Source: Oscillospiraceae bacterium (lineage in GTDB: Bacteria; Bacillota; Clostridia; Oscillospirales; Acutalibacteraceae). From it: a DNA stretch of 36,494 nucleotides. The notes below the pieces were generated by a model. That model made no database searches. It was not told the origin of the DNA and worked only from the letters and a program-made list of their open reading frames with translations. The DNA is taken from NCBI GenBank assembly GCA_015065505.1, contig SVQE01000025.1, positions 1 to 36,494 of the forward strand. Direction: 5' to 3'. Position 1 is the first letter of the stretch. The number at the start of each line of letters is the position of its first letter. Positions 3,001 through 27,287 of the stretch are shown here, piece after piece. Made by a program: the position numbers and the translations under genes.

Positions 3001-4613
3001 AGTCTGCCTGCAGGGGTTTGGGGAACATCGGTTTCTTCCTCGTCCTCACCCTCTTCTCCCGAGTAGAAGGTTATATTTCTGTATTCAAGTCCTTTGAAGA
3101 AATACTGATTATCGTCGTCACCGATTTTAATGCTTGAAATCGTTGTGTCGTTGATATTATTAAGGCGCGAAATAAAGGTTTCTTCCGTTGTTTCGGCTAT
3201 GCTCTGAATAAGGTTGCCGCTTTCATCGGTTATATATGCCTTAAAGCTGTTGCCCGTAAATTCGGCAATATAGTGATAGTTAACGCCAACGGAAAGATGC
3301 CCGTTGTTTGCAGTAATTGAGGTTGCCTTTGACTGCGTTCCTGCGTTATGGCCGTCGTTGTCCCACGAGTAGCAAACGCCGTTTGCATTCTGAGCAAAAT
3401 AGCAGAACGCCGCATTCTTTTCGGCAGGGGCGCTCAGATTATCGGTGTATACATACATCTTGATGAAGGAATATTCATCGCTGTTATAATAATCTGCGCT
3501 GTCGGCAGTTTTGAATCTGAAGCCGAAATCAAGCTTCCACCTTGATGCGCCCGTTATCGGAACAGAGCCGCCCTCATAACCCGAAAGATACATATATCCG
3601 TCGGGGATATAAACAGCGCCGTCCTCCGAATTTGAAGCGCTGCCGTTATTTGTGTAAACGCCCGTTGACCAGGTCATAGCGCTTCCCATATTGTTATAAA
3701 GCGCCGCCTCGCCCATACTGCCGTTTGTAACAGCTTCGCTCTGCGTGAAATCGCTTGACGCAATCGGGCTCCACACCGTTGGTGCAGGAATCTCCTCGCC
3801 CGAATAGAAGGTTATATTTCTGTATTCAAGTCCTTTGAAGAAATACTGATTATCGTCGTCGCCGATTTTCAGCGCGGTTATTGTGTTTGAATTGATGTTG
3901 TTAAGGCGGGAAATGAAGGTTTCTTCCTCGGTGTCGGCTATTGTCTGAACAACAACGCCGTCCTCATCCCTGATATATGCCTTAAAGCTGCTGCCCGTAA
4001 ACTCGGCAATATAATGATAATTAACGCCTGAAAGCAGATTGCCGTTGTTCGCAGTTAATGATGTTTCCTTCGATTTAGTGCCTGCATTGTGGCTGTCGTC
4101 CTCCCAAGAATAGCACAGCCCGTTAGCGTTTTGAGCAAAATAGCAGAACGCCGCATTCTTTTCGGCAGGATTGCTGAGATTATCGGTGTAAACATACATC
4201 TTGAGGAAGGAGTATTCATCGCTGTTATAAAACTCATCGTCGCCGCTTTCGTTCGTTTTGAATCTGAAACCGAAATCGAGCTTCCACTTTGATGAACCGT
4301 TTATCGGCGCAGCACCGCCCTTATAGCCTGAAATATACATATATCCGTCGGGAATCGAAACAGAATCCTCTGTGACCGAAGGATTGCCCGTCCAGTCGAA
4401 CAAATGCCATGTTATCGTGTTACCCTTGCCCTTATAGGTTGACGGGGTAATATTTGAATCGTTTGAAATGCTTTCAATGCCCGAGAAATCCGATGACGCA
4501 ACCGCGGTCCATTTTATTGCTGCCTCAGCGACAAAAGGAACGGCAGACAGCGTTGACACAAGCAACACCGCCGAAAGCATTAACGATATGACTTTTTTAA
4601 CCGATTTTTTCAT
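1..4613 (-). CDS. Large secreted/surface protein, partial (C-terminal part lies beyond the window start); two tandem LamG/ConA-like modules near the N-terminus, then helical and jelly-roll-like regions
   Basis: ATG at 4611-4613 (minus) with RBS-like GGTGG and signal peptide MKKSVKKVISLMLSAVLLVSTLSAVPFVAEA. Hand translation of many segments stays open to position 1 in the same frame. The ORF track misses it because there is no stop in the window. A ~741-bp internal duplication is visible. Confidence 0.88.
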   Translation of the reverse strand, partial: MKKSVKKVISLMLSAVLLVSTLSAVPFVAEAAIKWTAVASSDFSGIESISNDSNITPSTYKGKGNTITWHLFDWTGNPSVTEDSVSIPDGYMYISGYKGGAAPINGSSKWKLDFGFRFKTNESGDDEFYNSDEYSFLKMYVYTDNLSNPAEKNAAFCYFAQNANGLCYSWEDDSHNAGTKSKETSLTANNGNLLSGVNYHYIAEFTGSSFKAYIRDEDGVVVQTIADTEEETFISRLNNINSNTITALKIGDDDNQYFFKGLEYRNITFYSGEEIPAPTVWSPIASSDFTQSEAVTNGSMGEAALYNNMGSAMTWSTGVYTNNGSASNSEDGAVYIPDGYMYLSGYEGGSVPITGASRWKLDFGFRFKTADSADYYNSDEYSFIKMYVYTDNLSAPAEKNAAFCYFAQNANGVCYSWDNDGHNAGTQSKATSITANNGHLSVGVNYHYIAEFTGNSFKAYITDESGNLIQSIAETTEETFISRLNNINDTTISSIKIGDDDNQYFFKGLEYRNITFYSGEEGEDEEETDVPQTPAGRLVKAISKYEKKMNGTVYLDMADAYDAYVKANQAYDAYKYGNAEVDLDFYASLLNEKTDSLEKWEYKAETVTPYFDGDTGDNSAYAENGVANVIYWGSPYENDGAKFSNETADCVIELWYPMNTVLLLDGITAPAMPVLGMAKRDTSSTRYVYQLYPCASAEDISNSEHFKLGTSSDTRWYGSNGKTHRTHNWIWTVNQKTGEDVGYIKGEAGATATDMRLYLSRNDGMFGAGAINYWASFANTLRFRGNQSEYVKSYTVDWYGVSGNDISDFRVMSPSNQIHVVNVKPLLERINSVNNIAYLSVSENTYTQGGLKPLLEAYDIATKVNACSYDYSDTSNLNRIASDIENACNALDGAEVSSDEIGYENLRKAINAKKRIYEAGEEGYKAESWSEFSALYNEAVRIFADVQQTGYNSKTDETATGEYAAQAASQLNAYELVTLYDKVDSFELETVINEADYAAANITMFTEASYEASNIEAVVSAAQTAVWGEEENYPNAKYKLNLSDESTETVTNQINAVKEAIYKLKINRDATISSLDDKSMNSAIAWASNYSSEDYGNYAELASAVAAANSFVVTVNNASKGCIENKISEYKKKTKAIINAINLLRPAFDKITNGTWGSYTSNDETKVKSTDDNDDRWTLNFVRNNNVVVFRTEYAPFTVDLGGAKFIWYSGDKDHDGHLDTINIYDVGDNRVGEIKSGTRQYKIFGSLDGVSIEDQAENFPGMLSASTEENSTYKIKNLTVSYSSADRLGRTIDGTDVYDSSFLFDEVLSSTQGCEYNDLKGIVSARHGNTDINGQFTVSIPREPKKTLSASTVPKMTAHTLESNIGMVYYWKYINTSILWHGYSHDRNAYTQTTYVMNIAPLIELINRCRVYEDKEQVYQITPWNNFTAALSAARADMDYGNMTAEDIESACQTRYTNLWNAYTELLESPAANNASLHAAVEGDEEVGNIFKADNRDGRWSEKRWNAFKNAYLEAAGAIEQSGRYSDYNVRNYNES

Positions 4614-4733: not shown

Positions 4734-4762
4734 ATCTGCTACCTGCTACCTGCTATCTGCTA
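4718..4762. repeat. Heptanucleotide tandem repeat, (T/C)CTGCTA x6
   Basis: tctgcta cctgcta tctgcta cctgcta cctgcta tctgcta read directly; includes the TAG stop of the adjacent CDS. Confidence 0.9.
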
Positions 4763-5512
4763 GTAAATCGTATTTTCCGAAATTGTGCAATCGGTAATTG
4801 CGCCGCCGCTCACAATGCCTTCAACAAGAACAAGCGTTCCGAAGGCAGGCAGCTCATAGTCGCCCGAAATCTGAATAGTCCACGAGCCGTCGTAATACGC
4901 ATCCTCAAGCGTGCTCTCATCAAGAACTCTGCCGTAGCCGCAAACGCTCTTGCCCTCGAATTCATCGGGAAAATTAACAATGTTTATAACCTGAACTCTT
5001 TCAAGCGTGTTGCTCATACTCTGCATATCAATGTCCGCATCCTTTTCGGCGAGCTTGCTTTTAACTGTTATTTTCGGATTAATAATCCAGAAGCCGTCGA
5101 GCCCTTTTTCGTTCACCTCGTATGTTCCCTGAACGGATATGCGCGAGCCGCAGGGCGGAAGCGACGAAGCATCGTCAATTTTAAGCTCCCACTGCCAGTC
5201 ACAGCACTTTGTCTGGTCGTTATAGCCCCAGACATAATATCTTTCAACGCCGCTGTAGGCATCATGGATTTTTGTGAAAATACCGTCCTTGTTTGCAGGC
5301 TTGCCATCATAATCATCGGCGGTGTCGTTATAAAAAATATTCTGATATAAGGTGTATTCAGCGGTGTTTAAAACCGTTTCCATCGTTTCTGTTGCAGCAA
5401 CTTCGGATGATTTTTCTGCCTGCTTTGATTTTTCGTCCGCTGATTTAGAACAGCCGCAAAAAGCGCAAGCAAGCATCAATGCGCTTAGAGCTATCGCAAT
5501 AATCTTTTTCAT
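4760..5512 (-). CDS. Lipoprotein of unknown function, last gene of a metal-uptake operon
   Basis: 250 aa; lipobox-like ...LACAFCGC; sits 9 bp downstream of the ABC permease gene on the same strand; two similar beta-rich halves each with a V-x-G-x-Y/R type motif. Confidence 0.85.
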   Translation of the reverse strand: MKKIIAIALSALMLACAFCGCSKSADEKSKQAEKSSEVAATETMETVLNTAEYTLYQNIFYNDTADDYDGKPANKDGIFTKIHDAYSGVERYYVWGYNDQTKCCDWQWELKIDDASSLPPCGSRISVQGTYEVNEKGLDGFWIINPKITVKSKLAEKDADIDMQSMSNTLERVQVINIVNFPDEFEGKSVCGYGRVLDESTLEDAYYDGSWTIQISGDYELPAFGTLVLVEGIVSGGAITDCTISENTIY

Positions 5513-5521
5513 ATTAACCTC

Positions 5522-6382
5522 CTATGCCTTAGCTGCGCCGCGTGAGAGCGCGCCGATAATCCAGAACAGGAAAAACGCGAGCATATCTATTGCCACTATC
5601 GTTGAGCCGACAGGCGTTGACGCAAGAATTGAAACAAATATTCCGAGCGTTGTGCATATAACCGAAAATATTGCCGAGCAAATTGTTACCGCCCTGAAAT
5701 TCTTGAACACCCTCATTGCCGAAAGTGCAGGGAAAATAACAAGTGCCGAAATAAGCAGCGAGCCCACGAGATTCATTGCAAGAACTATTATAACCGCAAT
5801 TATAACCGCAATAAGCAGATTATAAAGCGAAGCGTTTGTTCCCGTTGCCCTTGCAAAGCTTTCATCAAAGGTTACTGCGAAAATCTTGTTATAAAACAAA
5901 CAGAAAACAATAACTACAATAATCGAAAGAATAACGCAAAGCCAGACATCAAGCTTTGAAAGCGTTAATATCGAGGTTGAGCCGAAAAGCGTTGTGCAAA
6001 CATCGCCCGAAACATTGCTTGAGGTCGGGAACAGATTCATAATCAGATAGCCTATTGCAAGCGAGGCAACGCTTATTATTGCAACGGCGGCATCGCCCTT
6101 TATTTTTCTGTTTTTGCCCCCTGCAAGAAGCAGAATTGCCGAAATAATTGTTATCGGAAGAACTAAAAGCATCTGGTTGGTTAAATTTGTAACCGCTGCA
6201 ACAGCCATTGCGCCGAAGGCAACATGGGAAAGTCCGTCGCCGATAAATGAAAATCTTTTTAAAACAAGCGTAACGCCGAGCAGCGAGGAACAAAGTGCAA
6301 TCAGCACGCCAGAAATCAGCGCATATCTTACGAAGGGATATTCAACAATATACATCGTTATTTTTGAAATAATATCAGCCAT
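5522..6382 (-). CDS. znuB: Metal (zinc/manganese-type) ABC transporter permease, ABC-3 family
   Basis: 286 aa multi-TM protein; FSFIGDGLSHVAFGA motif typical of ZnuB/MntB permeases; 1-bp overlap with the ATPase gene. Confidence 0.9.
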   Translation of the reverse strand: MADIISKITMYIVEYPFVRYALISGVLIALCSSLLGVTLVLKRFSFIGDGLSHVAFGAMAVAAVTNLTNQMLLVLPITIISAILLLAGGKNRKIKGDAAVAIISVASLAIGYLIMNLFPTSSNVSGDVCTTLFGSTSILTLSKLDVWLCVILSIIVVIVFCLFYNKIFAVTFDESFARATGTNASLYNLLIAVIIAVIIVLAMNLVGSLLISALVIFPALSAMRVFKNFRAVTICSAIFSVICTTLGIFVSILASTPVGSTIVAIDMLAFFLFWIIGALSRGAAKA

Positions 6383-7083
6383 TATTCAGTCCCTCCCGAT
6401 GCAAAAAGCTTTGAGCGCTCGCTGTTTAAATATTCTTCCTTCGTGCCGAAGAAAACATCGCCCGACATATGAAGAATATGGCTTGCATATTTTACCGCAG
6501 CCGAAATATCGTGGGAAATCATAATAATTGTTATGCCCGATTTATTGATGCTTTCAATAAGCGCATACATCTCGGCAGTAACCTTCGGGTCAAGCCCCGA
6601 AACGGGCTCATCAAGAAGAAGCAGCTTTGAGGTTGCGCAAAGCGCCCTTGCAAGAAGAACTCTCTGCTGCTGACCGCCCGAAAGCTCGCGATAGCAGCGC
6701 TTTTTAAGGTTGGTAATTCCCATTAATTCCATATTGTATTTTGCATTCTTTTTATCCGCTTCGGAATAAAAAGGCTTGATTCCGCCGCGCGAAAGATTGC
6801 CCGAAAGAACTATTTCCCAGACGGATGCGGGGAAATCGCGCTGAACAACGGTTTGCTGGGGCAGATAGCCTATTTCGTTTTTCTTAAGCCCCTCGCCCCT
6901 GATTATCTCACCGCCGAGCGGCTTTTGAAGATTTAAAAGGGTTTTCATAAGCGTTGATTTGCCCGAGCCGTTTTCACCGACTATACAAAGATAATCGCCG
7001 CTGTTTATTTCAAAATTTATGTTCCTTGCAACAATGCTTTTATCGTAGCCGAGAACAAGATTTTCACATTTTAATATCGACAT
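6382..7083 (-). CDS. znuC: Metal ABC transporter ATP-binding protein
   Basis: Walker A GENGSGKST, signature LSGGQQQRVLLARAL, Walker B LLLLDEP. Confidence 0.93.
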   Translation of the reverse strand: MSILKCENLVLGYDKSIVARNINFEINSGDYLCIVGENGSGKSTLMKTLLNLQKPLGGEIIRGEGLKKNEIGYLPQQTVVQRDFPASVWEIVLSGNLSRGGIKPFYSEADKKNAKYNMELMGITNLKKRCYRELSGGQQQRVLLARALCATSKLLLLDEPVSGLDPKVTAEMYALIESINKSGITIIMISHDISAAVKYASHILHMSGDVFFGTKEEYLNSERSKLFASGGTE

Positions 7084-7095
7084 AGTTTTTATTCC

Positions 7096-8076
7096 TTAAT
7101 TTAACGCTGTTTTCAGTGTTTCAAGATTTTCCTGCATAATACCGAGATAGCTTATGTTATTTTTCAAATCATCTGCGGTTATTGACTGCATTGAATTCAT
7201 TGTTAAAATCTTTGCATTTTTTGATTTCGAGCTGTTTATTATAGTTTCGGCAAGCTTATGCTCTGTTCCCTCAAGAGTTATAACATATTTAAGAGAAAGC
7301 TCATCAAGCTTTTTTGCAAGAAAGCTTACTGTTTCAAAGCTTGCCTCGGTTTCCGCCGAGCAGCCGATAAACGCCGCATAATAATCTATATCGTAGTCAT
7401 CGGTTAAATATCTGAACGGAAAACGGTCGCCGAAAAGAAGAGTTTTGGTTTTTGCCGAGCTTACACAGCTTTCATATTCATCATCAAGCGCTTCAAGCTT
7501 TTCTTCATAAGCCTTTGCGTTTGCTTTATATGCATCGCTGTTTTTTGAATCAACCTCGCAGATTGCCTCGGTTATCTCTTCAACAAGCTCATCGGCGTTT
7601 TTAAGCGAAAGCCAGATGTGTTCATCGTATTCGGCTTCCTCCTCGCCTTCTTCGTCTTCTTCCTCTTCGCCCTGCATTCCTTCAACAAGCTCTTCCTCTT
7701 TTGCGCTGTCGCCGAGAAGCTCGAGCAGATTTAAAGTCCTTTGTTTTTCATTCTGAGAGTTTTCGGTTGCATCCTCTGCCCATTCATCGCTCTCACCGCC
7801 GACATAAATGAAAACATCGCTTGTCTGAATGCTGATAATATCATCAGCCGAGGGCTGAAAGCTGTGAAGGTCGGCACCGCTGTTTATAAGCATACTCACT
7901 TCAACGCCGTCAACACCCTCTGTTATATTCTTAACCCAGTCGTAAATCGGGAATATTGTTGTTACAATTTTAATTTCCGCATTCTTTTTGCCGTTTTGCT
8001 CATCAGAGCACGAAGCAAGAATTATCGAGCCGATAAGCAAAACAAGGCAGAGAAAAACGCTTACTATTTTTTTCAT
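7096..8076 (-). CDS. znuA: Metal ABC transporter substrate-binding lipoprotein (ZnuA-like) with a Glu/Asp-rich loop
   Basis: Start moved to MKKIVSVFLCLVLLIGSIILASC (RBS GGAGG just upstream). KIVTTIFPIYDWVKNI, HSFQPSADDI and DEHIWLSLKNA motifs typical of the family; acidic loop EEEEDEEGEEEAEYDEH. Confidence 0.9.
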   Translation of the reverse strand: MKKIVSVFLCLVLLIGSIILASCSDEQNGKKNAEIKIVTTIFPIYDWVKNITEGVDGVEVSMLINSGADLHSFQPSADDIISIQTSDVFIYVGGESDEWAEDATENSQNEKQRTLNLLELLGDSAKEEELVEGMQGEEEEDEEGEEEAEYDEHIWLSLKNADELVEEITEAICEVDSKNSDAYKANAKAYEEKLEALDDEYESCVSSAKTKTLLFGDRFPFRYLTDDYDIDYYAAFIGCSAETEASFETVSFLAKKLDELSLKYVITLEGTEHKLAETIINSSKSKNAKILTMNSMQSITADDLKNNISYLGIMQENLETLKTALN

Positions 8077-8172
8077 AAAAATAAACCTCCAAAAAAACAC
8101 ACCGAGAAAAAGGCGCTATACGCCCTTGGTCAGCAATTATCATTTCTTTAAATCAGATAGTAATTGCGTGTG

Positions 8173-14717: not shown

Positions 14718-16376
14718 TTGAAGAAAACCAATATAAAGGCGGCGTCAGCTGTTTTTTTGCTTATTGCGGCGGCGGTTTTATGCCGGAGAGCTTCATACAA
14801 TATTTCACTTCCCTTTGCCGCGAGAATTTTTGATTTCACAAGAACGCTGATATATATCGGTTTATTCTCAGTCTGGGGCTTTTCGATTAATAAAAGAGTT
14901 GTTCACAGGCAGACAAAACGGCTTCTGCTTGCGGTTTGCCTGCTTGAAATATTCTGGCTGACAATAAGGGAATTCAAATACCGCTTTGTTTTTGACGCCG
15001 ACGCGCTCAGGGGACTTTGGTATTTATACTATATTCCCACGATACTCGTTCCCCTGCTCGCCCTTTATATCTCAATGCTTCTCACAAAGCCCGATGGCTA
15101 CAGGCTGAACAGGAAATCAGCTCTTTTCGCAATTCCGAGCATCGCTTTGCTGGTTCTTATGCTCGGCAACGATTTCCATCAGCTTGCCTTCAGATTCCCC
15201 GAGGGAGCGGTTAAATCCGAGCAGAGCTACACATACGGCATAGTCTATTTTTTAACCGTTATCTGGGCGGTTATATGCTCGCTTTTATCCTTTTCGGTTA
15301 TGCTGATGCGTTCGCGTCTTCCGAAAAACAGAAAGAGCATTCCCCTGCCCCTTGTTCCCATTGCGGCGGCGCTTGTTTACAGCGTTTTATACGCGCTGCG
15401 TCTTGAATTCATATTAAGAGCCTTCGGTGATGTCGCGGTTGTTTTCTGCCTTGTTTTCACAGCCTTTTTCGAATGCTGTATTCAATGCGGACTCATTCAG
15501 ACAAACACGCGCTATTCCTCTCTTTTCAACGCAACCGAGGGTATTTCGGTTATCATAACCGATAATGACTATAACCCGAAATATGCCTCGCGGGACGCCG
15601 AGAGCTTTTTACACGAGGATATGAAAAAAGCCGAAAAAGCGCCGATAATTCTTGACAGCAAAAAGCGCCTTAACAATATGAAGGTTTACGGAGGAAGAGC
15701 GCTTTGGAGCGAGGATATTTCCGAAATTCTTGAACTTTCTCAAACACTGAAGGACACCCACGAGGAATTAAAGGAGCTCAGCTCTCTTTTGCTTCTTGAA
15801 TACGAAAAGGAAAAGGAGCACAAAACCGTTGAGGAGCAAAACCGACTTTATGATTTGCTCCAGAGCAAAACCCAGCCCCAACTCAATCTGATTGATTCAT
15901 TGATGCAGAAATATAAAGCTTCAGAATCCGAAAAGGAAAAGCAGAAAATTCTCGCAAATATTCTTGTTATAGGAACCTTTATCAAAAGGCGCAAGGATTT
16001 TGTTTTATCAATGGAATATGCAGATGAATTCCCGGAGCTTATGCTCAGCAGCGCGCTGAATGAATCGTTCAGGGCGCTAAAGCTCCTCGGCATAAAAGGC
16101 TCATTTCTGGTTAATTCAAAAAGAGAGCTTGTTTCATCAAAAGCCCTCAGCCTTGCATATGATTTCTTTGAGGATATTGTTGAGGCGGTTATAGATGAGG
16201 CGCGCTATATAAACCTTCAGTTCTGCGAGGTTGGCGGAAGGCTCAGAATAAGCATTTTAACCGATTGCAAAAAGGAAGCAGCGGCGCTTGCTGCAAAATA
16301 TCCCGATATGATAATAAGCGGCGATGATGATTCCCTCGCGTTTCTCCTGAAACTTGAAGGGGGTGAGGGAATATGA
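14718..16376 (+). CDS. Membrane sensor protein, histidine kinase 7TM-type N-terminus with a degenerate kinase core
   Basis: 552 aa, TTG start with RBS-like AAAGGCGG; about seven hydrophobic segments, PAS-like segment (NATEGISVIITDNDYNPKYAS), long helical region; no recognisable H-box His or G-boxes. Confidence 0.8.
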   Translation: MKKTNIKAASAVFLLIAAAVLCRRASYNISLPFAARIFDFTRTLIYIGLFSVWGFSINKRVVHRQTKRLLLAVCLLEIFWLTIREFKYRFVFDADALRGLWYLYYIPTILVPLLALYISMLLTKPDGYRLNRKSALFAIPSIALLVLMLGNDFHQLAFRFPEGAVKSEQSYTYGIVYFLTVIWAVICSLLSFSVMLMRSRLPKNRKSIPLPLVPIAAALVYSVLYALRLEFILRAFGDVAVVFCLVFTAFFECCIQCGLIQTNTRYSSLFNATEGISVIITDNDYNPKYASRDAESFLHEDMKKAEKAPIILDSKKRLNNMKVYGGRALWSEDISEILELSQTLKDTHEELKELSSLLLLEYEKEKEHKTVEEQNRLYDLLQSKTQPQLNLIDSLMQKYKASESEKEKQKILANILVIGTFIKRRKDFVLSMEYADEFPELMLSSALNESFRALKLLGIKGSFLVNSKRELVSSKALSLAYDFFEDIVEAVIDEARYINLQFCEVGGRLRISILTDCKKEAAALAAKYPDMIISGDDDSLAFLLKLEGGEGI

Positions 16377-17611
16377 CATATTTCGCCGAGCTTTCTCAAT
16401 CGCTCAGGTCCGCAATATCGGGCGCGCTTTTTCTTGCGGTTATGAGCCTGCTTTGCGCGGTTATCTACACCTTTATTAACAGAAAGCGCACAAAAAGCTT
16501 TTATTTCAACTGCGTTTTGTTTACCCTCAGTCTCGCTCTGGCTGCGCTTTTATCCTCAGCAAGCTCCCTTGATTTCAGTTTGAATATTCCCTGTATCGTT
16601 TTGATTCTTTTCACCGCAGGGCTGTTTGTTTATTCCGCCTTTATAATTATCAACGAATATAAAATCAGTCGAAACAGCCTCTCCCCGCTATCGGTTAAGC
16701 AGGCGCTCGACAATCTTAATTCGGGAATATGCTTTTCCGATGAAAACGGCAGAATCGTTTTGATAAACCACACGATGAGCAAGCTTATATCAAGCCTCAC
16801 GGGAAATTATCCTCAAACGCTTGACGAGATTAAAGCGGCTCTTGAAAAGGCTAAAAAAGAAAACGACACCGAGGGAGCATATCATTTCAAAGACGGCAGC
16901 GTTTGGAAATTCACAATTCTTGATACAGGCTCAAGCGAGTTTTCGGGCTTTCATCAGACCTACGCTCAGAACATCAGCGATTTATATGAGGTTAACACAA
17001 GACTGATTGAAGAAAACGAGGAGCTTAAGAAAACAAACAAAAAAACAAGAATTATGCTTGAACGCCTTGCCGACAGAATCCGCGAGGAGGAAACGCTGAG
17101 GCTGAAAATGCAGATTCACGATGATATCGGAACAAGCCTTATCAAGATTTCAAAGATTATGCAGGGCGACAAAAGCGAGGATATGCAGCGGCAGCTTTCG
17201 CTTCTTGAAAACGCAATAAGCTTTTTCTCGCAAAACAGGGCGCTGAAAACAAAAAACCTTGCCGACGCCGAAAGCAAGGCGGATTCAATGGGCGTTAAGC
17301 TCAATATCAAAGGCGAGCTTCCGAAAAATGAAGGCGCGAAGGATTTGCTTTTCTCAGCGGTTTATGAATGCCTCACAAACTGCGTTATACACGCAAAGGG
17401 AAATGAGGTTTTTGTTGAAATAAATGAAAGCGAAATCAGCTATAATATTGATATATCAAATAACGGAGCGCCCCCCGATAAGCCCGTATCCGAGGGCGGA
17501 GGATTAACCTCGCTGAGAAGAAAAACCGAAGCCGAAGGCGGAAAAATGAGCGTTTCCTCCGACGGACAATTCATATTGCATTTATCAATTCCGAAACAGG
17601 AGGCACTATGA
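16373..17611 (+). CDS. Sensor histidine kinase (HisKA_3/HATPase-like)
   Basis: IHDDIGTSLIKI phosphoacceptor region, YECLTNCVIHAKGNEVFVEI N-box, GGGLTSLRRKTEAEGG G-box; ATGA overlap with the upstream gene. Confidence 0.88.
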   Translation: MTYFAELSQSLRSAISGALFLAVMSLLCAVIYTFINRKRTKSFYFNCVLFTLSLALAALLSSASSLDFSLNIPCIVLILFTAGLFVYSAFIIINEYKISRNSLSPLSVKQALDNLNSGICFSDENGRIVLINHTMSKLISSLTGNYPQTLDEIKAALEKAKKENDTEGAYHFKDGSVWKFTILDTGSSEFSGFHQTYAQNISDLYEVNTRLIEENEELKKTNKKTRIMLERLADRIREEETLRLKMQIHDDIGTSLIKISKIMQGDKSEDMQRQLSLLENAISFFSQNRALKTKNLADAESKADSMGVKLNIKGELPKNEGAKDLLFSAVYECLTNCVIHAKGNEVFVEINESEISYNIDISNNGAPPDKPVSEGGGLTSLRRKTEAEGGKMSVSSDGQFILHLSIPKQEAL

Positions 17612-18237
17612 TAAACACAATAATTGTTGAAGACAATATCTATATTCAAAACCACCTTGCTGCAATGCTTTCGGCTTATGAAGCCTACAGCGTTGTTGCC
17701 GTTTTAAAGGATGCCTTTGAAGCGGAGGAAATCTGCAAAAAAGGAAAAATTGATTTGGTTATTATGGACGTTCAGACCCAGCATAATCATTCGGGACTTG
17801 CTTCCGCCGAAAGAATCAAGGCAAAAAACAGCTCAATAAAAATAGTTGTTGTCACCTCCCTTATCGACCCCAAGGTTCTTCAAAGGGCAAAGAGCGGAGC
17901 CGCCGACAGCCTTTGGTATAAAGACCACGGCGAGGAGGAGCTGATGGAGGTTGTTGAAAAAACGATGGGCGGCGAGAACATTTTTCCCGACACCTCGCCC
18001 AATGTTGAAATCAAAAATATGTTTTCAGGCGAAATAACCCCGCGCCAGATAGATATTCTTCGCCGTTTCGTTCAGGGAATGACCTATGACGAAATCGCCG
18101 AGGAGCTGAACCTTTCAAAAAACGGCGTTCGCTGGAATCTCGACCAGATTTGCGAAAAGGGAGGCTTTGACAACAAGCATGAGCTTCTCGCGGCGGTTAT
18201 TGAAAACAAACTGATTGTTACAACGCTGATTGATTAG
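17608..18237 (+). CDS. LuxR/NarL-type response regulator
   Basis: MINTIIVEDNIYIQNHL receiver start, DLVIMDV, K at the expected position (SLWYKDHG), C-terminal HTH ITPRQIDILRRFVQGMTYDEIAEELNLSKNGVRWNLDQI; ATGA overlap with the kinase. Confidence 0.92.
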   Translation: MINTIIVEDNIYIQNHLAAMLSAYEAYSVVAVLKDAFEAEEICKKGKIDLVIMDVQTQHNHSGLASAERIKAKNSSIKIVVVTSLIDPKVLQRAKSGAADSLWYKDHGEEELMEVVEKTMGGENIFPDTSPNVEIKNMFSGEITPRQIDILRRFVQGMTYDEIAEELNLSKNGVRWNLDQICEKGGFDNKHELLAAVIENKLIVTTLID

Positions 18238-18375: not shown

Positions 18376-20370
18376 ATGAAAAAGACATTATCATTAATCC
18401 TTGCATTTGTAATGCTTCTCAGCGTTACTGCAGGACTGAACATCACCGTTTTTGCATCGAATACGGTTTCATCCGTTTATCTTTGCAATGGTGACGGTCA
18501 GAAACTGGATTTAGGTCCGATAGACGGCGAAAATCCGTGCTTCAACATTTATGAATCAGATAACAAGGTTGTTGTTGACACGGAAAGCGAAGCTCGCACC
18601 TACACAAACGGCGTCAGGTGGCAGGACACGGCAACCTATCAGATGCTTCAGCCGACGGACACATTTGAGGCAAATCACACTTACGAGCTCAGGGTAATTC
18701 TCAAATGTGCTGACGGATATATTTTCAACACAAAAGAGGGTCATATAGATGTTAAGGCACACCTTCGCCATACAATTGTTACTGACACAGTTGCAACCTT
18801 CTATGTTGAAGGTGATGTTGAGGAATATAATGCAGACACCATCATTGTTTCAAAAACCTTCACCTGCCCCGGTATTCAGGATATTGCCGAAGCAGAGATT
18901 TCAATGACCGCACCCCAGGATGGCAAAAGAGCTTTCTATAACTCAAATCCGAGCGGCAGTAAATTCTATATCGACGAAACCGAAAGCAGCACCTTCCTCG
19001 GAAACAAGATTCGCTGGTATAATGTGACCGAAGGCTGGTTCCTCACCGAAGAGGATGTCTTTGAGGCAGGAAATGTTTACGAGGCATATGTTCGCCTGAG
19101 ACCGAATAAGGGCTATCAGTTCACAGAGGACACGGTTGTTAAATTCGGCTCGACTACTGCAACTATTCAGAGTCAGGCGGCAGATTATATCACCGCTTAT
19201 GTTGATTATACGCTCTATTACTCTGTTAAAGATGTTGAAATGACAATAGATGTTGACTTTTCACCAAGCAAGCCCGCTGCATTCTTTGCAAATTCAGAGG
19301 AGCCCGACAGATATTACTGCTATGACTATAATGACGACGCATTTGTCAGCGGCGTTTGCTACAAGGATTTAACAAACGACAGCTATATGGAGGTAGGCGG
19401 ACTTCCGTTCTTCCAGGGACACGAATACTCTGTTACCGTTGCAGTTACATGTCAGGATGCAAATAAGTTTTCGGGTCTTAATGTAATAACCTCAAGCATA
19501 AACGGAGTTGATGCTGAGGTAAGCGCAAGGTCACCGTTCGGTGAAAGAGTTGAAGGCGTCTACTTCTTTACCGCTAATCTCGGCACCTGTGCAAAGGATT
19601 TAAACGATTGCACGGTGGCTTATCCTAAAAACGCAAAATATGTTTATAACGGAAAGAAACAGAAGCTTCAGGTTATTATCACAGACAAAGGCGAACTTCT
19701 TGTTGAAGGCACGGACTATGAAATTCTCTATATGGGAAGCCACACCAATGTTGGCAAGGTAAACTTTGAAATCATCGGACTCGGTGAATACAAAGGCTCA
19801 AAATCAGGCTCCTTCAATATTACCGCAAAACCGATGTCGTCCGGTGCTAAAATCAATATTTCGGGCAAAACCTTCACCTACGACGGCAAGATTAAACAGC
19901 CCACAGTAACAGTTTACGACGGCAGCACGAAGCTTAAAAAGAACACCGACTACACTGTTTCCTACAGCTACACAAAATCCAAAAATGTCGGCGAATACAG
20001 CGTTAAGGTTACCTTCAAGGGCAATTATTCGGGTAGCAAATCCATTACCTACACAATAATTCCCAAGGGCACAACGCTTCTTAAAACCGCTTCAACGGGC
20101 AAGGACTGGATTTCGCCTCAGTGGAATAAGCAGACCACTCAGACCACGGGCTACGAGATTATGTATTCAAAGTCGGCAGGCTTCAGAAGCGGAAACAAAA
20201 CCGTAACCGTAAGCGACAACAAACAGACTGTCAAGAAGATTAAGAGCTTGAAGAAGAATACAAAATATTATTTCAAGATTCGCACCTATAAGAAGGTTAA
20301 AATCAACGGAAGATATAAAGTTTTCTATTCCTCCTGGTCACCTGTTAAGGAATTCAAGACAAGGAAGTAA
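18376..20370 (+). CDS. Secreted multidomain protein: three related beta-rich repeats, Ig/MBG-like module and C-terminal FN3-like module
   Basis: Start moved to MKKTLSLILAFVMLLSVTAGL (signal peptide, AGAAAGGATGG RBS). C-terminus FTYDGKIKQPTVTV... and TTQTTGYEIMYSKS...KYYFKIRTYKKV...SSWSPVKEFKT. Confidence 0.9.
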   Translation: MKKTLSLILAFVMLLSVTAGLNITVFASNTVSSVYLCNGDGQKLDLGPIDGENPCFNIYESDNKVVVDTESEARTYTNGVRWQDTATYQMLQPTDTFEANHTYELRVILKCADGYIFNTKEGHIDVKAHLRHTIVTDTVATFYVEGDVEEYNADTIIVSKTFTCPGIQDIAEAEISMTAPQDGKRAFYNSNPSGSKFYIDETESSTFLGNKIRWYNVTEGWFLTEEDVFEAGNVYEAYVRLRPNKGYQFTEDTVVKFGSTTATIQSQAADYITAYVDYTLYYSVKDVEMTIDVDFSPSKPAAFFANSEEPDRYYCYDYNDDAFVSGVCYKDLTNDSYMEVGGLPFFQGHEYSVTVAVTCQDANKFSGLNVITSSINGVDAEVSARSPFGERVEGVYFFTANLGTCAKDLNDCTVAYPKNAKYVYNGKKQKLQVIITDKGELLVEGTDYEILYMGSHTNVGKVNFEIIGLGEYKGSKSGSFNITAKPMSSGAKINISGKTFTYDGKIKQPTVTVYDGSTKLKKNTDYTVSYSYTKSKNVGEYSVKVTFKGNYSGSKSITYTIIPKGTTLLKTASTGKDWISPQWNKQTTQTTGYEIMYSKSAGFRSGNKTVTVSDNKQTVKKIKSLKKNTKYYFKIRTYKKVKINGRYKVFYSSWSPVKEFKTRK

Positions 20371-20467: not shown

Positions 20468-23400
20468 ATGAAAAAGAAATTATTCAGCTTGTTATTGGCG
20501 GCAATGATGGTTATATCAGTTGCTCCCCTGCAGCCGTTTGCAGCATATGCAAGCGATAGAGAAGATGCGGTCACCTGTCCCCTGTGCGGTCACGAGAGAT
20601 GGGGAAACTGGCTTTGCGAGGAATGCGGAATCTGTTCGGAAGAAGCCGACACAGACTGCTTTGTTGAATCGCACTGTGAGGACTGCGGCACCTGCCTTGC
20701 ACTTGAAGGAATTTTTTGTTCGGAGTGCCACAGCTGTGAAGGCTGTATGATCGGCAATGAGGACCATTGCTCTGAATGCTATGAATGCTACAACGGCGAT
20801 TCTGATTCGCTTTGCTGGCTCTGTCGTGTGGGTCCCTGCTGCAGAGACATCTGCGATGACTGCGGACTTTGTGAATACTGCCAGGAAAGTATTCACGCAC
20901 ACTGCCCCGAATGCTACAGTTGCTTTCAGACAGTTGATTACTGCCTTGACACAGGCACAACTTATCATTGCGAAAACGAATGCATTATATGCGACCAGTG
21001 CGGCACCTGCCTTTATGAAGAAGGCATAGACCTCTGCGAGGATTGCAACCTTTGCCCCGACTGCTGCAGAGAAAACGCTGAGGCGGAAGGCTGCTCCTGC
21101 GGTGAATACTGTATTGAAAGCTCCGATTGGTTTGAGCATATCTGCGAAAACTGCGGTGTTCCCTTCTGCGATACTCCGCAGTGTGAAATCTGCGAGCTTT
21201 GCATTAATTGCTGTGAAGAAAACAGCGAATGCGACGACGGAATGTGCGTTGAAGACCCCGATTATGAAGACCATTTTTGTATGGAATGCGGAGATTGCTT
21301 CCATATCGTAAACCAGTGCGAAACCTGCTCTGAAAACAATGAAATGCGCTGTGAAACCTGCTGTGCAAAGCTTGTTAAAGAAGCAGGATGCACCTGCGAT
21401 GACCAATGCATAAGCCAACCCGGCTTTGAAAACCATCTTAAAACCGAACACAGCAGCACATATATCAAAAACCACGGCGCAACTCCCGAAAGCCGCTGGG
21501 ACTATGACGCAACATATCACTGGCTCAACTGCTCCTACTGCGACCTTGAAAGCCACCGCACAAAAAAGGCAGCTCACGATTTTGATAAATACGGCAACTG
21601 CAAAATCTGCGGTGCAAGTAATTCAAGCGCAATGGTTATTATGCAGCAGCCGAAGGACGCAAACAGCGCTGTTCCCGATTACAACAGCATCAGCGCAGAG
21701 GATAAATATCACGAAAGCAATCTTTCCGTCAGATTCTACACCGCTGTTTATTCCGTAAGCAAGGTTTCATATCAGTGGTATCAGAAAGCGGGCAGCGGCA
21801 GCTGGGTTGCTCTTAAAGACGATGTTGATAAAATCGGCAATGTAACATATCCCATTGTTAGCGGAGCCAAAACCGCAACGCTCAAAATCTGTCCGCCCGT
21901 TGATGCCTGCTATACGGATTACTCCTATAAATGCGTTATAACAAACACCAAGGGCAACAAGATTGAAACGAAGACGGCAAGACTTTTCGCAAGTCATATC
22001 TATGATAAAGCCGAGTGGGTTGGCGCCCACAAGGGACAGATTAAGCTTGCAAACGGCAAAACCGTTCATATTTATGAGGATAAGGGCCACACAATGGCGT
22101 GCCACGGCGACGGCTGTGAAGCTGTTAAGAAAAAGGTTTACCGCCACCGCTACGGCTACACCGCCGGCAAGGACAGCAAGGAAATCGTTACCGATGAAAA
22201 AGGCGGAAAATGGTGGGTGAGAACCTGTAAGGACTGCGGATTCAAGAAATACCTTGTTCAGCACGACCACGATTTCCACAATGCAGAAGTTGATTTCACC
22301 TACGACAGCTATTCACAGCATAAGCTCATATGCACCTATAACGGCATAAGCGGTTCCTGCGAGGAAACAACTCTTGAACCCCACGCTTGGACAAACTGGC
22401 AGAATGTGGGCACTCCGTGGACAAATAATGAAGGAGTCGGCGCTGCATACAGAAGCTGTGTTGTCTGTTCGCACTGGAGCAAGGATTATCAGTATCGCTA
22501 TGTTGACGGAACATTTAAGAAAACACAATGGACAAAAAAGAACGACCTTGTTTATGTTCAGTACGGCACAGCGACCTCGGATATTGTTGTAAACGGCGAT
22601 AATATTGATATTATCTTCTCGCCCTCCGATTACGAAAAAACCAATCTCATAAAGAAGGCAAATCCCTATTGCTACGGCTGGAAGGTTTACTACACTCCGA
22701 AAAAGTCCCATATGGACGACAAAACCGATATTGATGTAACAAAGTATTTCACCTTCACCGAGGCTTATCAGGGAAGCAAATACAAGGTTTCCTGCAATAT
22801 CACAACCAATTTCAGCGGATATAAGGGTGGCGGCGTGTTCTCCTTTATTCCTAAGATTTCAAATGATAACTGTAAGCACACAGGCGCCACCGAAACCGTT
22901 TTGAAAACCGACCCCGTATGCGTTAAAAACGGCTATACAGGAAATGTTATCTGCCTGCAGTGCGGCGGCGTAAAAGAATACGGTCACGTTATCCCCGGAA
23001 GCGACACCCACACAGGCAATTTAACCGTTATTCCCGGAAGCGCGAAGACCGGAGACTGTTATAACTACGGACACGAAGCAGATAAAAAGTGCGACAAATG
23101 CGGACTCAGGGTTCCCGGAAAGATAACGCCCAAGGTTCACAAAGAGGTTGTTAAAGACGCAAAGGCGGCAACTCTAACCGAGCCCGGTTACAGCGGCGAC
23201 ACCTACTGCAGCATCTGCGGAATACTTGTTAAAACAGGTAAGGAAATACCTCAGCTTTCAAACGAGATTAAAACTGTTGAACTTTTCCACCTTAACGCTC
23301 CGAAGGAAAACGCTTCACCCGATTACGATGTTACAAAGCCCGAAAATGTTAAATACGGAACAAAGCTTTCTCAGTATCCGATTATCTGGCGCGACGAGAC

Positions 23401-25375
23401 AACGGGAACCGTGATGAATAAGGACAGCAAATTCGTTGCGGGGCGCGCATATTCCGTGCTCATTCCTGTTTTTGCAGCCGATAAATATATTTTTGCAAAC
23501 TACGGCGATTTGCTATCGGCTGTAAACGCAACAATCGACGGCAAAAGAGTTTCGGTCAGAAGATATGAGGATAATTCGCTTGATGGTGTTATCGGCGTTT
23601 ACTGCTATTTCGGCGAATGCGATGATTCGGTTGTAAATGAGGTTAAGCTTAACAATGTTTCAGTGCCCGTTGCAGGACAGACTCCGAAATACACGGGCGA
23701 TGTTATGGGCACGGGTTATGTGAGAATGGCAGCTAATCTTCAAAACTGGCAGGTTCAGGGAATGAATTGGCGCAATCATGTTAAAGATTATATACTTGAT
23801 AAAACCGATATCATAGAACCAAACGGAGTTTATATCTGCCATATTGAGCTTGTTGCTCAGGACGGCTACACCTTTGATAACAAAACAAAGGCTTCCGTAA
23901 ACGGAAAAAAAGCAAATGTTGTAGAGCAAACTGCAACAACAATAAAAATTGAATGCACATTTTTGCCACAGATTCAGGTTATGGATACAATTTCCGTCTC
24001 CAATATCAAGGAGCCCGTTGTCGGCTCAAAGCCCGAATATGATATAACACTTCCGAAGGATGCCGTTTACACACTTGATACAAGCTTCAACAATGAGTAC
24101 ACGGTTAACGGCATTATGTGGGGAACTGTTACAAACGGAAATCCCTCATCGTTCTCACGAATTGCAAAAACAGATAAATTCGTCAGCGGCAAGCAATATG
24201 CAATTTCCCTTGACCTCTATCCGAAGGAGCTGGACGGACAGCCTGTTTCGAAATTTGACAGAAGCAATCCCCCAACCGTTATTTTCAACGGCGAGGTTAT
24301 AACACCTTCATTGCTTGATGTCACATACGGCGGTTCAAGCGCTTCATTAATCTATGTCTTCCCCACCCTGCATTCTCACAGCTACTCCTGGGTTAAGGCT
24401 GAGAACTCACACTATAAGGAATGTTCCTGCGGTGAGAAGAAGGATATCGGCGTTCACGTTTACGATAACGATAAGGACACAACCTGCAACACCTGCGGAT
24501 ATGTGAGAACCATTAAAGATACTCACTCCCACAGCTACACAACGCTTAAGCACAACGGCGATTACCACTGGTATGAGTGCTCCTGCGGAAACAAGGTATC
24601 ATTTGAAGAGCATATCTATTCAAACGATAAGGACGCAACCTGCAATGTCTGCGGCTTTGACAGATACCACACTCATTCCTACGATACTAAAAAATCAAAC
24701 AGCACTCAGCATTGGTACGAATGCTCCTGCGGTGCGAAAAAGGATATAGAAAAACACGAATATCTGGAAATCAACTCCTGTGCAACCTTATCAAAGAACG
24801 GCAAGATAAGCAAGCGCTGCGCGGTGTGCGGCTATCAGCCTGCCGACACGGTAATCTATATGCCCAAGACCTTTACTCTTTCAAAGAGCTCGTTTACCTA
24901 TGACGGTAAGGCGCACAAGCCGACTGTTACGGTTAAGGACAGCAAGGGCAAGGTTATTGATAAGAGCAACTACCTCCTTGAATATTCAAAGGGCAGAAAG
25001 GATGTTGGCTCCTACACGGTTAAGGTTATCTTTGACGGCGATAAGTACTACGGCACTAAAAAGCTCACCTTCAAGATTAATCCGAAAGCAACCGAGCTTT
25101 CAAGCCTCAGCGCCAAATCAAAGGGCTTTACTGCAAAGTGGAAAAAGCAAACAACTCAGACTACGGGCTACGAAATTCAGTATGCAACGGATTCAAAATT
25201 CACGAAGAACAAGAAAACCGTAACCGTTAAGAGCAACAAAACCACAAGCAAGGCAGCAAGCAGCCTCAAAGGAAAAACAAAATACTATGTAAGAATAAGG
25301 ACCTATAAAACGGTGAACAAAACAAAGTATTATTCCTCGTGGTCAAAATTCAAAACCGTTACAACCAAAAAGTAA
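20468..25375 (+). CDS. Giant secreted Cys-array protein with zinc-ribbon-like repeats, Ig/MBG-like repeats and C-terminal FN3-like module
   Basis: Start moved to MKKKLFSLLLAAMMVISVAPLQPFAAYA (signal peptide). About 60 Cys in the first ~300 mature residues, mostly CxxC/CxxCGxC; later CxxCG repeats, three HSY..HWYECSCG units, FTYDGKAHKPTVTV and TTQTTGYEIQYATDS module. Confidence 0.92.
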   Translation: MKKKLFSLLLAAMMVISVAPLQPFAAYASDREDAVTCPLCGHERWGNWLCEECGICSEEADTDCFVESHCEDCGTCLALEGIFCSECHSCEGCMIGNEDHCSECYECYNGDSDSLCWLCRVGPCCRDICDDCGLCEYCQESIHAHCPECYSCFQTVDYCLDTGTTYHCENECIICDQCGTCLYEEGIDLCEDCNLCPDCCRENAEAEGCSCGEYCIESSDWFEHICENCGVPFCDTPQCEICELCINCCEENSECDDGMCVEDPDYEDHFCMECGDCFHIVNQCETCSENNEMRCETCCAKLVKEAGCTCDDQCISQPGFENHLKTEHSSTYIKNHGATPESRWDYDATYHWLNCSYCDLESHRTKKAAHDFDKYGNCKICGASNSSAMVIMQQPKDANSAVPDYNSISAEDKYHESNLSVRFYTAVYSVSKVSYQWYQKAGSGSWVALKDDVDKIGNVTYPIVSGAKTATLKICPPVDACYTDYSYKCVITNTKGNKIETKTARLFASHIYDKAEWVGAHKGQIKLANGKTVHIYEDKGHTMACHGDGCEAVKKKVYRHRYGYTAGKDSKEIVTDEKGGKWWVRTCKDCGFKKYLVQHDHDFHNAEVDFTYDSYSQHKLICTYNGISGSCEETTLEPHAWTNWQNVGTPWTNNEGVGAAYRSCVVCSHWSKDYQYRYVDGTFKKTQWTKKNDLVYVQYGTATSDIVVNGDNIDIIFSPSDYEKTNLIKKANPYCYGWKVYYTPKKSHMDDKTDIDVTKYFTFTEAYQGSKYKVSCNITTNFSGYKGGGVFSFIPKISNDNCKHTGATETVLKTDPVCVKNGYTGNVICLQCGGVKEYGHVIPGSDTHTGNLTVIPGSAKTGDCYNYGHEADKKCDKCGLRVPGKITPKVHKEVVKDAKAATLTEPGYSGDTYCSICGILVKTGKEIPQLSNEIKTVELFHLNAPKENASPDYDVTKPENVKYGTKLSQYPIIWRDETTGTVMNKDSKFVAGRAYSVLIPVFAADKYIFANYGDLLSAVNATIDGKRVSVRRYEDNSLDGVIGVYCYFGECDDSVVNEVKLNNVSVPVAGQTPKYTGDVMGTGYVRMAANLQNWQVQGMNWRNHVKDYILDKTDIIEPNGVYICHIELVAQDGYTFDNKTKASVNGKKANVVEQTATTIKIECTFLPQIQVMDTISVSNIKEPVVGSKPEYDITLPKDAVYTLDTSFNNEYTVNGIMWGTVTNGNPSSFSRIAKTDKFVSGKQYAISLDLYPKELDGQPVSKFDRSNPPTVIFNGEVITPSLLDVTYGGSSASLIYVFPTLHSHSYSWVKAENSHYKECSCGEKKDIGVHVYDNDKDTTCNTCGYVRTIKDTHSHSYTTLKHNGDYHWYECSCGNKVSFEEHIYSNDKDATCNVCGFDRYHTHSYDTKKSNSTQHWYECSCGAKKDIEKHEYLEINSCATLSKNGKISKRCAVCGYQPADTVIYMPKTFTLSKSSFTYDGKAHKPTVTVKDSKGKVIDKSNYLLEYSKGRKDVGSYTVKVIFDGDKYYGTKKLTFKINPKATELSSLSAKSKGFTAKWKKQTTQTTGYEIQYATDSKFTKNKKTVTVKSNKTTSKAASSLKGKTKYYVRIRTYKTVNKTKYYSSWSKFKTVTTKK

Positions 25376-25433: not shown

Positions 25434-27287
25434 CTATTTCCAGGTTCTTGTTGACCTGATTGCAGACCAGGCTGAATATTCCTTCTTGCCGTTTACGGTT
25501 TTATAACCTCTTACTCTGAAGAAATATTCTTTTTCAGCCTCAAGCTTTTCAACCTTAATGGTTGTATCATCGCCTTTGGATTCAACTGTTTTATTATCCT
25601 TATCAAAGGCATTGTTTGTTGCATACTCAAGCTCATAGCCCTCGTATTCCTCCGAAGCCTTATAGCTTACTGTGAAGGATTTAACGCCCGGATAAATAGT
25701 TGAGAAGAGAACTGTTTTACGAGCTTCGCCGTAGTAAACAGGAACCTTCTTGCTGAACAAGCCGTTATTGTATTCGGGAATCCAGTTCTGACCGAGGTCG
25801 CAGGTTTCCTTGAACTTTTCTTCCTTTTCCTGAACGAAAACTTCGTTAAGACCTGTAAGCTCTTTTGTGTCCTCATCCTTATAAACAGCTTCCCACATCA
25901 GGTGGTGACCTATTTCCTTAACAGATGAAGGAATATAGATATAATCAAGCCCTCTGAGGTGATAGAAAGCATCCGAACCGATTGTTGTAACTCCATCGGG
26001 AATTGAATGATAGAACTCTGTTATCTGAGGAAGCGCATCGTTATAGAAGGTTCCCTCAATCGGGGTTTCGGTTTTATAAGTGTAGATATGCTTTAATTCT
26101 TCATCCTTGAATATTGCCTGATTATCGATTACGGTAACGCCCTCAGGAATATACAAATCGGTTAAGTTTGAATATGCAAATGCAAGCTGACCGATTTTTG
26201 TAACCGTTGAAGGAATAACATAGGTTCTTGTTTTCAGGTTGTAATCATCGAAGAAATCCGAATCATATTTTGCAGTTGTTCCCCAGAGCTCCCACATATA
26301 TCTGGGATTATCTTTGGTGCTGTCGTCCTCTTCAAGCTCTGAATGGAATGCCCAGTAGTATTCCGACTGCTTTGAAGGACATGCTTTACCGTCCTTACCG
26401 GGGCATTTATAATCCTCGGGGAAGCCTTCGGGTGCTACGGCATTGGTTTCGGTTTTATACTTTTCTGCGCCTTCACCGTCGTATTTTCTGCCGCATGCTT
26501 CGCATTCCCATTCAAGATGAGCAAAGCCCTCTTTCAGACGGCGTGTTCTGTCGTAATCAATGGGATAAAGAATGATTTCGGTTTTATCCTTGTTGTAAAG
26601 AACACCGTCTATATCGCAGTAATACGGGTTTTCATCATCAACATCAACATACTGAAGGTTCCAGCATGAATAGATTGATTTGCCGTCAATGCGTTTAACA
26701 TCCTTGCCGATGTTGATTCTTTCAATAGAGCTGTCGCAGTTGAATGCATAATCGTGAAGCTCGGTTATCGGCTTTGTTTTATCCCTTGTTCCGTCGCTGT
26801 TGATATAATAGTCAACCGTTACTTCTCTTATGTTTCCCGGGTTAACATATGAAACAAGCTCAAATCCGCCCTTATCCACCGCCGAGAAGGTGTATTCAGT
26901 TGTTTTAAGCGCTCTCACCGAGAAGAAAATACTAAGTGAAATTGCAACAAGAAGAATTAAAACAACAGCAATTTTTGATTTCTTTGCATTGGCATAGGAA
27001 TGATTGATTTTCGGTGCCTGAAGTCCTTCAATCTGATAGGTCCAGATTTCGTCCTCGGGAATGTCGAGAGTATATTCGGGAGCCTGCTCAGCCATTTCCT
27101 TGGCTTCCTTAGCTAAGAAATCGCCGTCCTCTTCAGATTTAACCTCAGCGCTTTCCTCTTCCTGCTCCTCGGCAGCTTCTTCTGCCTTAATCTCTTCGGC
27201 TTCCTGAGCCATTTCTTCAAGCTCGTTTTCATTCACAGATGCAGTGAATTCATTTTCCTGAAGGTTATCCTTTTCCTTCTTACTCAT
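25434..27287 (-). CDS. Single-pass membrane protein: acidic cytoplasmic N-terminus, TM, BspA-type LRR_5 repeats interrupted by a rubredoxin-like segment, C-terminal FN3-like module
   Basis: 617 aa; KKSKIAVVLILLVAISLSIFF TM; LRR-like IERINIGKDVKRIDGKSIYSCWNLQYVDV and TYVIPSTVTKIGQLAFAYSNLTDLYIPEGVTVI; WECEACGRKYDGEG...FPEDYKCPGKDGKAC; GYELEYATNNAF...YFFRVRGYKTV. Confidence 0.88.
   Translation of the reverse strand: MSKKEKDNLQENEFTASVNENELEEMAQEAEEIKAEEAAEEQEEESAEVKSEEDGDFLAKEAKEMAEQAPEYTLDIPEDEIWTYQIEGLQAPKINHSYANAKKSKIAVVLILLVAISLSIFFSVRALKTTEYTFSAVDKGGFELVSYVNPGNIREVTVDYYINSDGTRDKTKPITELHDYAFNCDSSIERINIGKDVKRIDGKSIYSCWNLQYVDVDDENPYYCDIDGVLYNKDKTEIILYPIDYDRTRRLKEGFAHLEWECEACGRKYDGEGAEKYKTETNAVAPEGFPEDYKCPGKDGKACPSKQSEYYWAFHSELEEDDSTKDNPRYMWELWGTTAKYDSDFFDDYNLKTRTYVIPSTVTKIGQLAFAYSNLTDLYIPEGVTVIDNQAIFKDEELKHIYTYKTETPIEGTFYNDALPQITEFYHSIPDGVTTIGSDAFYHLRGLDYIYIPSSVKEIGHHLMWEAVYKDEDTKELTGLNEVFVQEKEEKFKETCDLGQNWIPEYNNGLFSKKVPVYYGEARKTVLFSTIYPGVKSFTVSYKASEEYEGYELEYATNNAFDKDNKTVESKGDDTTIKVEKLEAEKEYFFRVRGYKTVNGKKEYSAWSAIRSTRTWK

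Follow-up and report, generated by a model that had tools for sequence, protein, structure and literature searches.

An exported Oscillospiraceae protein with a dense cysteine block, probably a tandem array of Cys/His metal knuckles

The locus and its cysteine-dense gene

The window, by which we mean the whole stretch of 36,494 nucleotides that was analysed, harbours a long gene for an exported protein with a dense block of cysteines. Upstream of it lie a gene for another secreted protein, three regulator genes and, further away, a metal-uptake operon.

5522-8100, minus strand: metal ABC uptake operon, similar to the zinc systems AztABC and AdcA, with matches below the curated cut-offs
14718..16376, plus strand: 7TM sensor protein (HisKA_7TM), whose gene opens an upstream regulator trio that recurs beside arrays
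16373..17611, plus strand: PAS/histidine-kinase-like protein with a weak UhpB match
17608..18237, plus strand: response regulator with a LuxR (GerE) DNA-binding domain
18376..20370, plus strand: adjacent secreted fn3 protein of 664 aa
20441-25375, plus strand: ORF of the Cys-array protein, opening at ATG 20441 (1644 aa)
20468..25375, plus strand: exported Cys-array protein from its probable start at ATG 20468 (1635 aa), of which full-length homologues exist

An earlier note on this DNA had placed both a metal-uptake operon and another extracellular CxxC-bearing protein in the neighbourhood of the array gene. The operon is real, but its link to the array did not hold, as it lies about 12 kb away with unrelated genes in between and does not recur next to homologues; in the 6 kb around the array homologues, no metal transporter was found repeatedly. 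A second CxxC-rich neighbour is not supported: the gene at 25434-27287 encodes at most one CxxC and that at 18376-20370 none. A small lipoprotein-like gene (4760-5512) follows the metal-uptake operon, and the left edge of the window is reached by a gene for a large secreted protein (1-4613, minus strand), of which about 1537 aa are seen and which contains no CxxC.

Judged from the sequence, ATG 20468 is probably a better start of the array ORF than ATG 20441. It is preceded by a purine-rich stretch resembling a ribosome-binding site (GAAAGGAAAGGA) and the protein read from it begins MKKKLFSLLLAAMMVISVAPLQPFAAYA, as is typical of a signal peptide. Residue numbers are counted from ATG 20441. As described in the earlier note, a block of about one-fifth cysteine lies behind the signal peptide, and the motifs quoted there were found in the array sequence. 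The block (aa 45-324) contains 62 Cys in 280 residues (22%), which is far from chance, together with 66 Asp and Glu compared to 7 Lys and Arg (pI 4.05). CxxC occurs 30 times (overlapping count), compared to 13.5 +/- 2.9 expected from shuffles of the same residues, so that the spacing of the array is itself non-random. Across 19 stretches of this genome, about 360 kb in all, plus the window, the peak Cys density of the array ORF was 25 per 100 aa, against at most 9 in every other ORF. In the same sample, its whole-protein Cys fraction of 6.5% was more than four times the median of 1.4% for exported-like proteins, whose signal peptides were assigned with a simple heuristic. A long antisense ORF over the array (20516-21577, minus strand) is not supported, because conservation sits at the level of the plus-strand protein.

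The array is followed by further modules, and the protein was divided as follows, all on the plus strand.

20468..20551, plus strand: putative signal peptide, about MKKKLFSLLLAAMMVISVAPLQPFAAYA, recognised by its composition
20576..21409, plus strand: Cys array (aa 46-323), alternating HCxxCxxC and CxxCxxCxxC(C) units
21035..21169, plus strand: long repeat R1 (aa 199-243), CxxCxxCxxCC-x8-CxC-x3-C-x8-H-x-CxxC-x4-C, with AlphaFold pLDDT >90
21182..21298, plus strand: long repeat R2 (aa 248-286), from sequence and AlphaFold
21317..21451, plus strand: long repeat R3 (aa 293-337), in which the terminal H332 and H337 replace Cys
21434..21610, plus strand: His/Cys module closing the array (aa 332-390), from sequence and conservation
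21626..22000, plus strand: putative Ig-like domain (aa 396-520, QP..YQWY..YKCVITNTKGN), conserved in the family
22871..23230, plus strand: CxxC/H repeats C..GYTGD..CxxCG..H with 3 Cys and 1 His each, from conserved columns
24368..24835, plus strand: HxHxY..CxCG..H..CxxCG repeats (aa 1310-1465), from sequence
24869..25084, plus strand: MBG_3-like domain (E 6e-4, below the curated cut-off)
25094..25324, plus strand: C-terminal fibronectin type III domain (PF00041, E 1.4e-5, above the cut-off)

In addition to its 62 Cys, the array contains conserved His at aa 78, 109, 154, 176, 233 and 278. In the most regular members of the family HCxxCxxC alternates with CxxCxxCxxC, with gaps of 5-8 residues. 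Such a two-unit repeat holds 7 Cys and 1 His, i.e. eight candidate ligands, which is enough for two tetrahedral sites. The long repeats R1, R2 and R3 have 12, 11 and 10 candidate ligands, respectively, including His, and thus not always a multiple of four. Conserved residues of the closing module are H332, H337, H345, H360, C364, C367, H372, H379, C387 and C390. For the repeats at 22871-23230 and 24368-24835 no Pfam family scored above its cut-off; they resemble single-site zinc modules and may bind zinc.

A patchy family with exchangeable ends

When searching 245 genomes of the same order, relatives of the Cys array were found in five other genomes. A profile scan of public genomes yielded 30 array loci, mostly from ruminant-gut Clostridia and some labelled Bacteroidaceae. 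The titles of 22 of the 30 records name a ruminant host (goat, roe deer, water deer, sheep, water buffalo or yak), the other eight titles give no host, and none names a non-ruminant one. Prevalence was low and patchy in a pattern-based scan of limited sensitivity, with arrays in 8/394 genomes of the order, 4/391 of the class and 1/399 of the phylum, where the genome of the window itself is one of those counted in each case. Three further genomes from its genus were without the array.

A short version of the array was found in the human isolate Vescimonas fastidiosa MM35. This protein (WP_212821894.1, annotated as hypothetical protein; L074:7872-9428, corresponding to NZ_AP023416.1 808152-809708) has 518 aa with 48 Cys and ends in a sortase-like tail (TPQTGD, TM and KKKNRR). 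With 43% identity over 170 aa (E 3e-22), it is by sequence a true homologue. Because this human isolate has the short array, the ruminant bias of the family is strong but not absolute. A plasmid search with the array gave a single match, the 861-kb replicon of Vescimonas, and a search of a phage collection gave none. MAGs labelled Bacteroidaceae also hold arrays (L031, L036-L038 and L040). The sequences of L037, L038 and L040 cluster with those of Firmicutes in the array tree, suggesting transfer across phyla unless these are binning errors. Three of L036, L037, L038 and L040 come from one goat omasum MAG. The complete L037, L038 and L040 have C-terminal tails that look like sorting signals for type IX secretion; in the two that were tested (L037 and L040), NCBIfam models confirmed none. 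By far the largest array seen, in L011 (L011:7491-11528, minus strand, genome G186), belongs to a protein of 1346 aa with 313 Cys (23%), in which a near-continuous array is followed by a dockerin-like C-terminus.

The homologues end in different surface anchors: SLH domains in L014, choline-binding repeats in L028 and L029, dockerins in L021, L034, L035, L039 and, by sequence, L011, and a C-terminal TM helix with a basic tail (KKKK) in L016-L020, L023-L027 and L031. The window protein, L015 and L022 end in fn3, and no recognised anchor was found in the window protein. Its signal peptide and the anchors of its homologues agree with the extracellular location proposed in the earlier note. On the array tree, counting well-supported branches only, the dockerin label changes at least four times, which indicates that the head has recombined with different anchors.

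A 7TM-type regulator adjoins the array gene in about half of the loci, and because contig ends cut several loci this count is a lower bound. In 11 loci it is a divergent one-component HisKA_7TM-LuxR gene (e.g. L014:4474-5493). The window, L015, L022 and L041 have genes for a 7TM sensor, a kinase and a LuxR response regulator, and in L043 only the response regulator was matched. The secreted fn3 protein at 18376-20370 is probably co-regulated with the array gene. A literature search, with most subscription journals outside its coverage, found no paper describing the array family, which is apparently large and undescribed.

Metal ligands or disulfides

The idea of a metal-binding array was to be given up if the Cys positions were poorly conserved among homologues, and it survived this comparison. 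In 29 aligned homologous arrays, the mean majority fraction was 0.96 for Cys columns compared to 0.51 for columns of neither Cys nor His. The 67 Cys columns contain 61 substitutions, and His was the most frequent replacement (21/61, with a His background of 6.2%). Swaps from Cys to His occur in several lineages at aa 62, 93, 181, 220 and 319, and reverse swaps at aa 337 and 345. Residue 319, a Cys of R3 in the window, is His in nine homologues from several branches; as these nine sequences have the swap in common, the independent exchange events are fewer than the alignment cells. The His at aa 78, 154, 278 and 332 are invariant in the 29 arrays. Turning a Cys codon into a His codon takes two or more nucleotide changes, and the exchange is therefore not accounted for by mutation bias. 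Metal ligands characteristically show such exchange of Cys and His with the spacing kept, whereas it would not be expected of disulfides. Read from the alignment, the exchange together with the invariant His is a signature of metal ligands, not of disulfides. As in zinc-knuckle proteins generally, Cys and His replace each other at the presumed ligand positions of the array while the spacing stays the same.

The array has no Pfam, NCBIfam or PDB sequence family, and no Pfam match was obtained up to E=10. AlphaFold nevertheless predicted an ordered fold, with a pLDDT of 84.9 and a pTM of 0.53 for a 351-aa block and of 90.8 and 0.71, respectively, for aa 153-340 (188 aa). Regular secondary structure is sparse in the latter model, as is also typical of zinc-stabilised domains. 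Foldseek against the PDB gave no significant match for the array models. The best E was only 0.71, and zinc is therefore not demonstrated by homology. The 27 weak PDB matches of the aa 153-340 model consist of 18 LIM domains, three ClpX ZBD, RING, U-box, CTCF fingers and similar domains, all of which we class as zinc or zinc-type domains; no disulfide-rich fold was among the 27. The top PDB sequence matches of the array profile are zinc-binding as well (ZCCHC4 and DHHC20), with E values of 0.03-0.05 that are not significant. A BFVD Foldseek match with E 8e-5 was treated as compositional (TM 0.14, rmsd 34). The earlier note had compared the spacing to zinc ribbons or metal clusters and not to a disulfide-knot toxin. 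The metal-type spacing was borne out by the Cys/His exchange, the invariant His, the ordered model, the weak matches to zinc folds only and the lack of DsbA and VKOR described below, whereas membership in the classical zinc ribbons was not, given the empty Pfam search.

Membership of the array in the LIM, DHHC, zinc-ribbon, VSP or metallothionein families is not supported. LIM domains (PF00412) have in common with it CxxC knuckles, HxxC or HC elements, a short terminal helix and tandem runs of modules that serve protein binding. However, even at E 10 the array has no Pfam LIM match, and the LIM layout of CxxC-x16-23-HxxC and CxxC-x16-21-CxxC differs from the gaps between array units, which are mostly 5-9 residues. 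LIM proteins are eukaryotic and intracellular. The zf-DHHC and ZCCHC4 domains resemble the array in their CxxC-x(6-9)-HCxxCxxC pattern and in the weak profile match given above. In contrast to zf-DHHC, the array lacks the DHHC catalytic motif and has many extracellular copies of its unit; neither Pfam nor NCBIfam gave a match to zf-DHHC or zinc ribbons.

A metal sink, in which a metallothionein-like scavenger traps Zn, Cu or Cd on the cell surface so that the metal can be taken up, stored or detoxified, would fit the very high Cys density, the acidity and the zinc/manganese-type uptake operon within the window. Metallothioneins likewise have more than 20% Cys and many CxxC. They are flexible, whereas the array spans 280 residues with an ordered predicted fold and fixed spacing over more than 60 columns, and is exported as part of a modular surface protein. 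With the operon 12 kb away, no transporter recurring near the homologues, and linked regulators that are of the 7TM/LuxR type and not recognisable metalloregulators, we consider a metal sink fairly unlikely.

A disulfide-crosslinked extracellular array (EGF-, VSP- or TNFR-like, with intra- or intermolecular bonds at the surface), close to the crosslinked surface layer suggested in the earlier note, would account for an exported and CxxC-rich protein. The Giardia variant surface proteins (VSPs) are likewise anchored, exported, CxxC-rich surface proteins of a gut organism. They average 12.6 CxxC per kb, compared to 35.7 (overlapping; about 24 non-overlapping) in the array, and their reported zinc binding is substoichiometric (PMC2996952). 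No Pfam VSP match and no sequence relation to them was found for the array. VKOR (PF07884) and DsbA (PF01323) were each absent from all six array-bearing genomes searched, which are drafts of 71-98% completeness, while positive controls worked; the search covered these two families and not thioredoxin-fold or other oxidases. As working DsbA and VKOR are present in some clostridia (PMC12453122), this absence speaks for the six genomes and not for all clostridia. Even numbers of Cys are not preferred either, as 13 of the 26 complete homologues have an odd total, and unpaired single Cys losses were seen in L014, L015, L028 and L029. Taken with the His exchange, the invariant His and the lack of disulfide-rich folds among the structural matches, these results leave the surface layer of the earlier note unsupported and make a disulfide array unlikely.

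An acidic decoy or trap that binds cationic peptides or enzymes from the host, with zinc serving as a scaffold for stability only, would agree with the excess of acidic residues in the block and the strong association with gut hosts. The acidity may just serve secretion or solubility, and we regard such a trap as quite improbable. A surface protein that handles electrons or acts as a thiol redox buffer, the latter also raised in the earlier note, is highly improbable despite 62 potentially free thiols at the surface of an anaerobe, as no positive evidence was found, no redox partner gene recurs near array loci, bulk buffering needs neither His exchange nor strict spacing, and dockerin-borne arrays would sit on enzyme complexes and not on the membrane.

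Proposed architecture and role of the array

We favour the reading that the block is a folded extracellular run of tandem Cys/His metal knuckles, most likely loaded with Zn(II) and less probably with iron or copper, which makes up the N-terminal head of a cell-surface protein built from modules, and we hold this to be probable though far from certain. Counting every one of the 62 Cys plus the conserved His as a ligand, the array would have room for about 15-17 tetrahedral Zn(II) sites, and each pair of HCxxCxxC and CxxCxxCxxC units, with its eight ligands, would provide two of them. Both the tight spacing of the units and, as a hypothesis, the weak profile resemblance to DHHC and ZCCHC4 suggest that neighbouring sites may be interleaved along the chain. 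Exported disulfides are not expected in the anoxic gut. The metal would perform the cross-linking that disulfides provide in aerobic extracellular proteins, and the outcome would be a rigid, protease-resistant and strongly acidic head. The Ig-like, CxxC/H and fn3 domains, together with species-specific anchors, may hold this head away from the cell, while the adjacent 7TM/LuxR-type regulator probably sets the expression of the array gene. The head most likely serves to bind or adhere to a ligand or partner surface encountered in the gut. The bound metal, its identity, the topology of the sites and the adhesive function are all inferred.

A bolder proposal, which we put forward tentatively as possible but doubtful, is a new kind of extracellular architecture in strict anaerobes, in which metal knuckles in bulk replace disulfides as an open-ended, interleaved Cys/His chain, reaching 313 Cys in L011. 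This chain would have passed between Firmicutes and Bacteroidota and become joined to at least five kinds of surface anchor.

Gram-positive anaerobes are thought to exclude cysteine from exported proteins, and the array family runs counter to this avoidance. If the metal-knuckle reading is true, anaerobes would have a route to rigid extracellular domains without disulfides, and much zinc, or another metal, would be held extracellularly in the gut. The array may then also be a new surface-binding module, borne on dockerins, SLH domains and sortase-type tails. The cultured human carrier Vescimonas fastidiosa MM35 offers a convenient experimental model, which makes the array testable.
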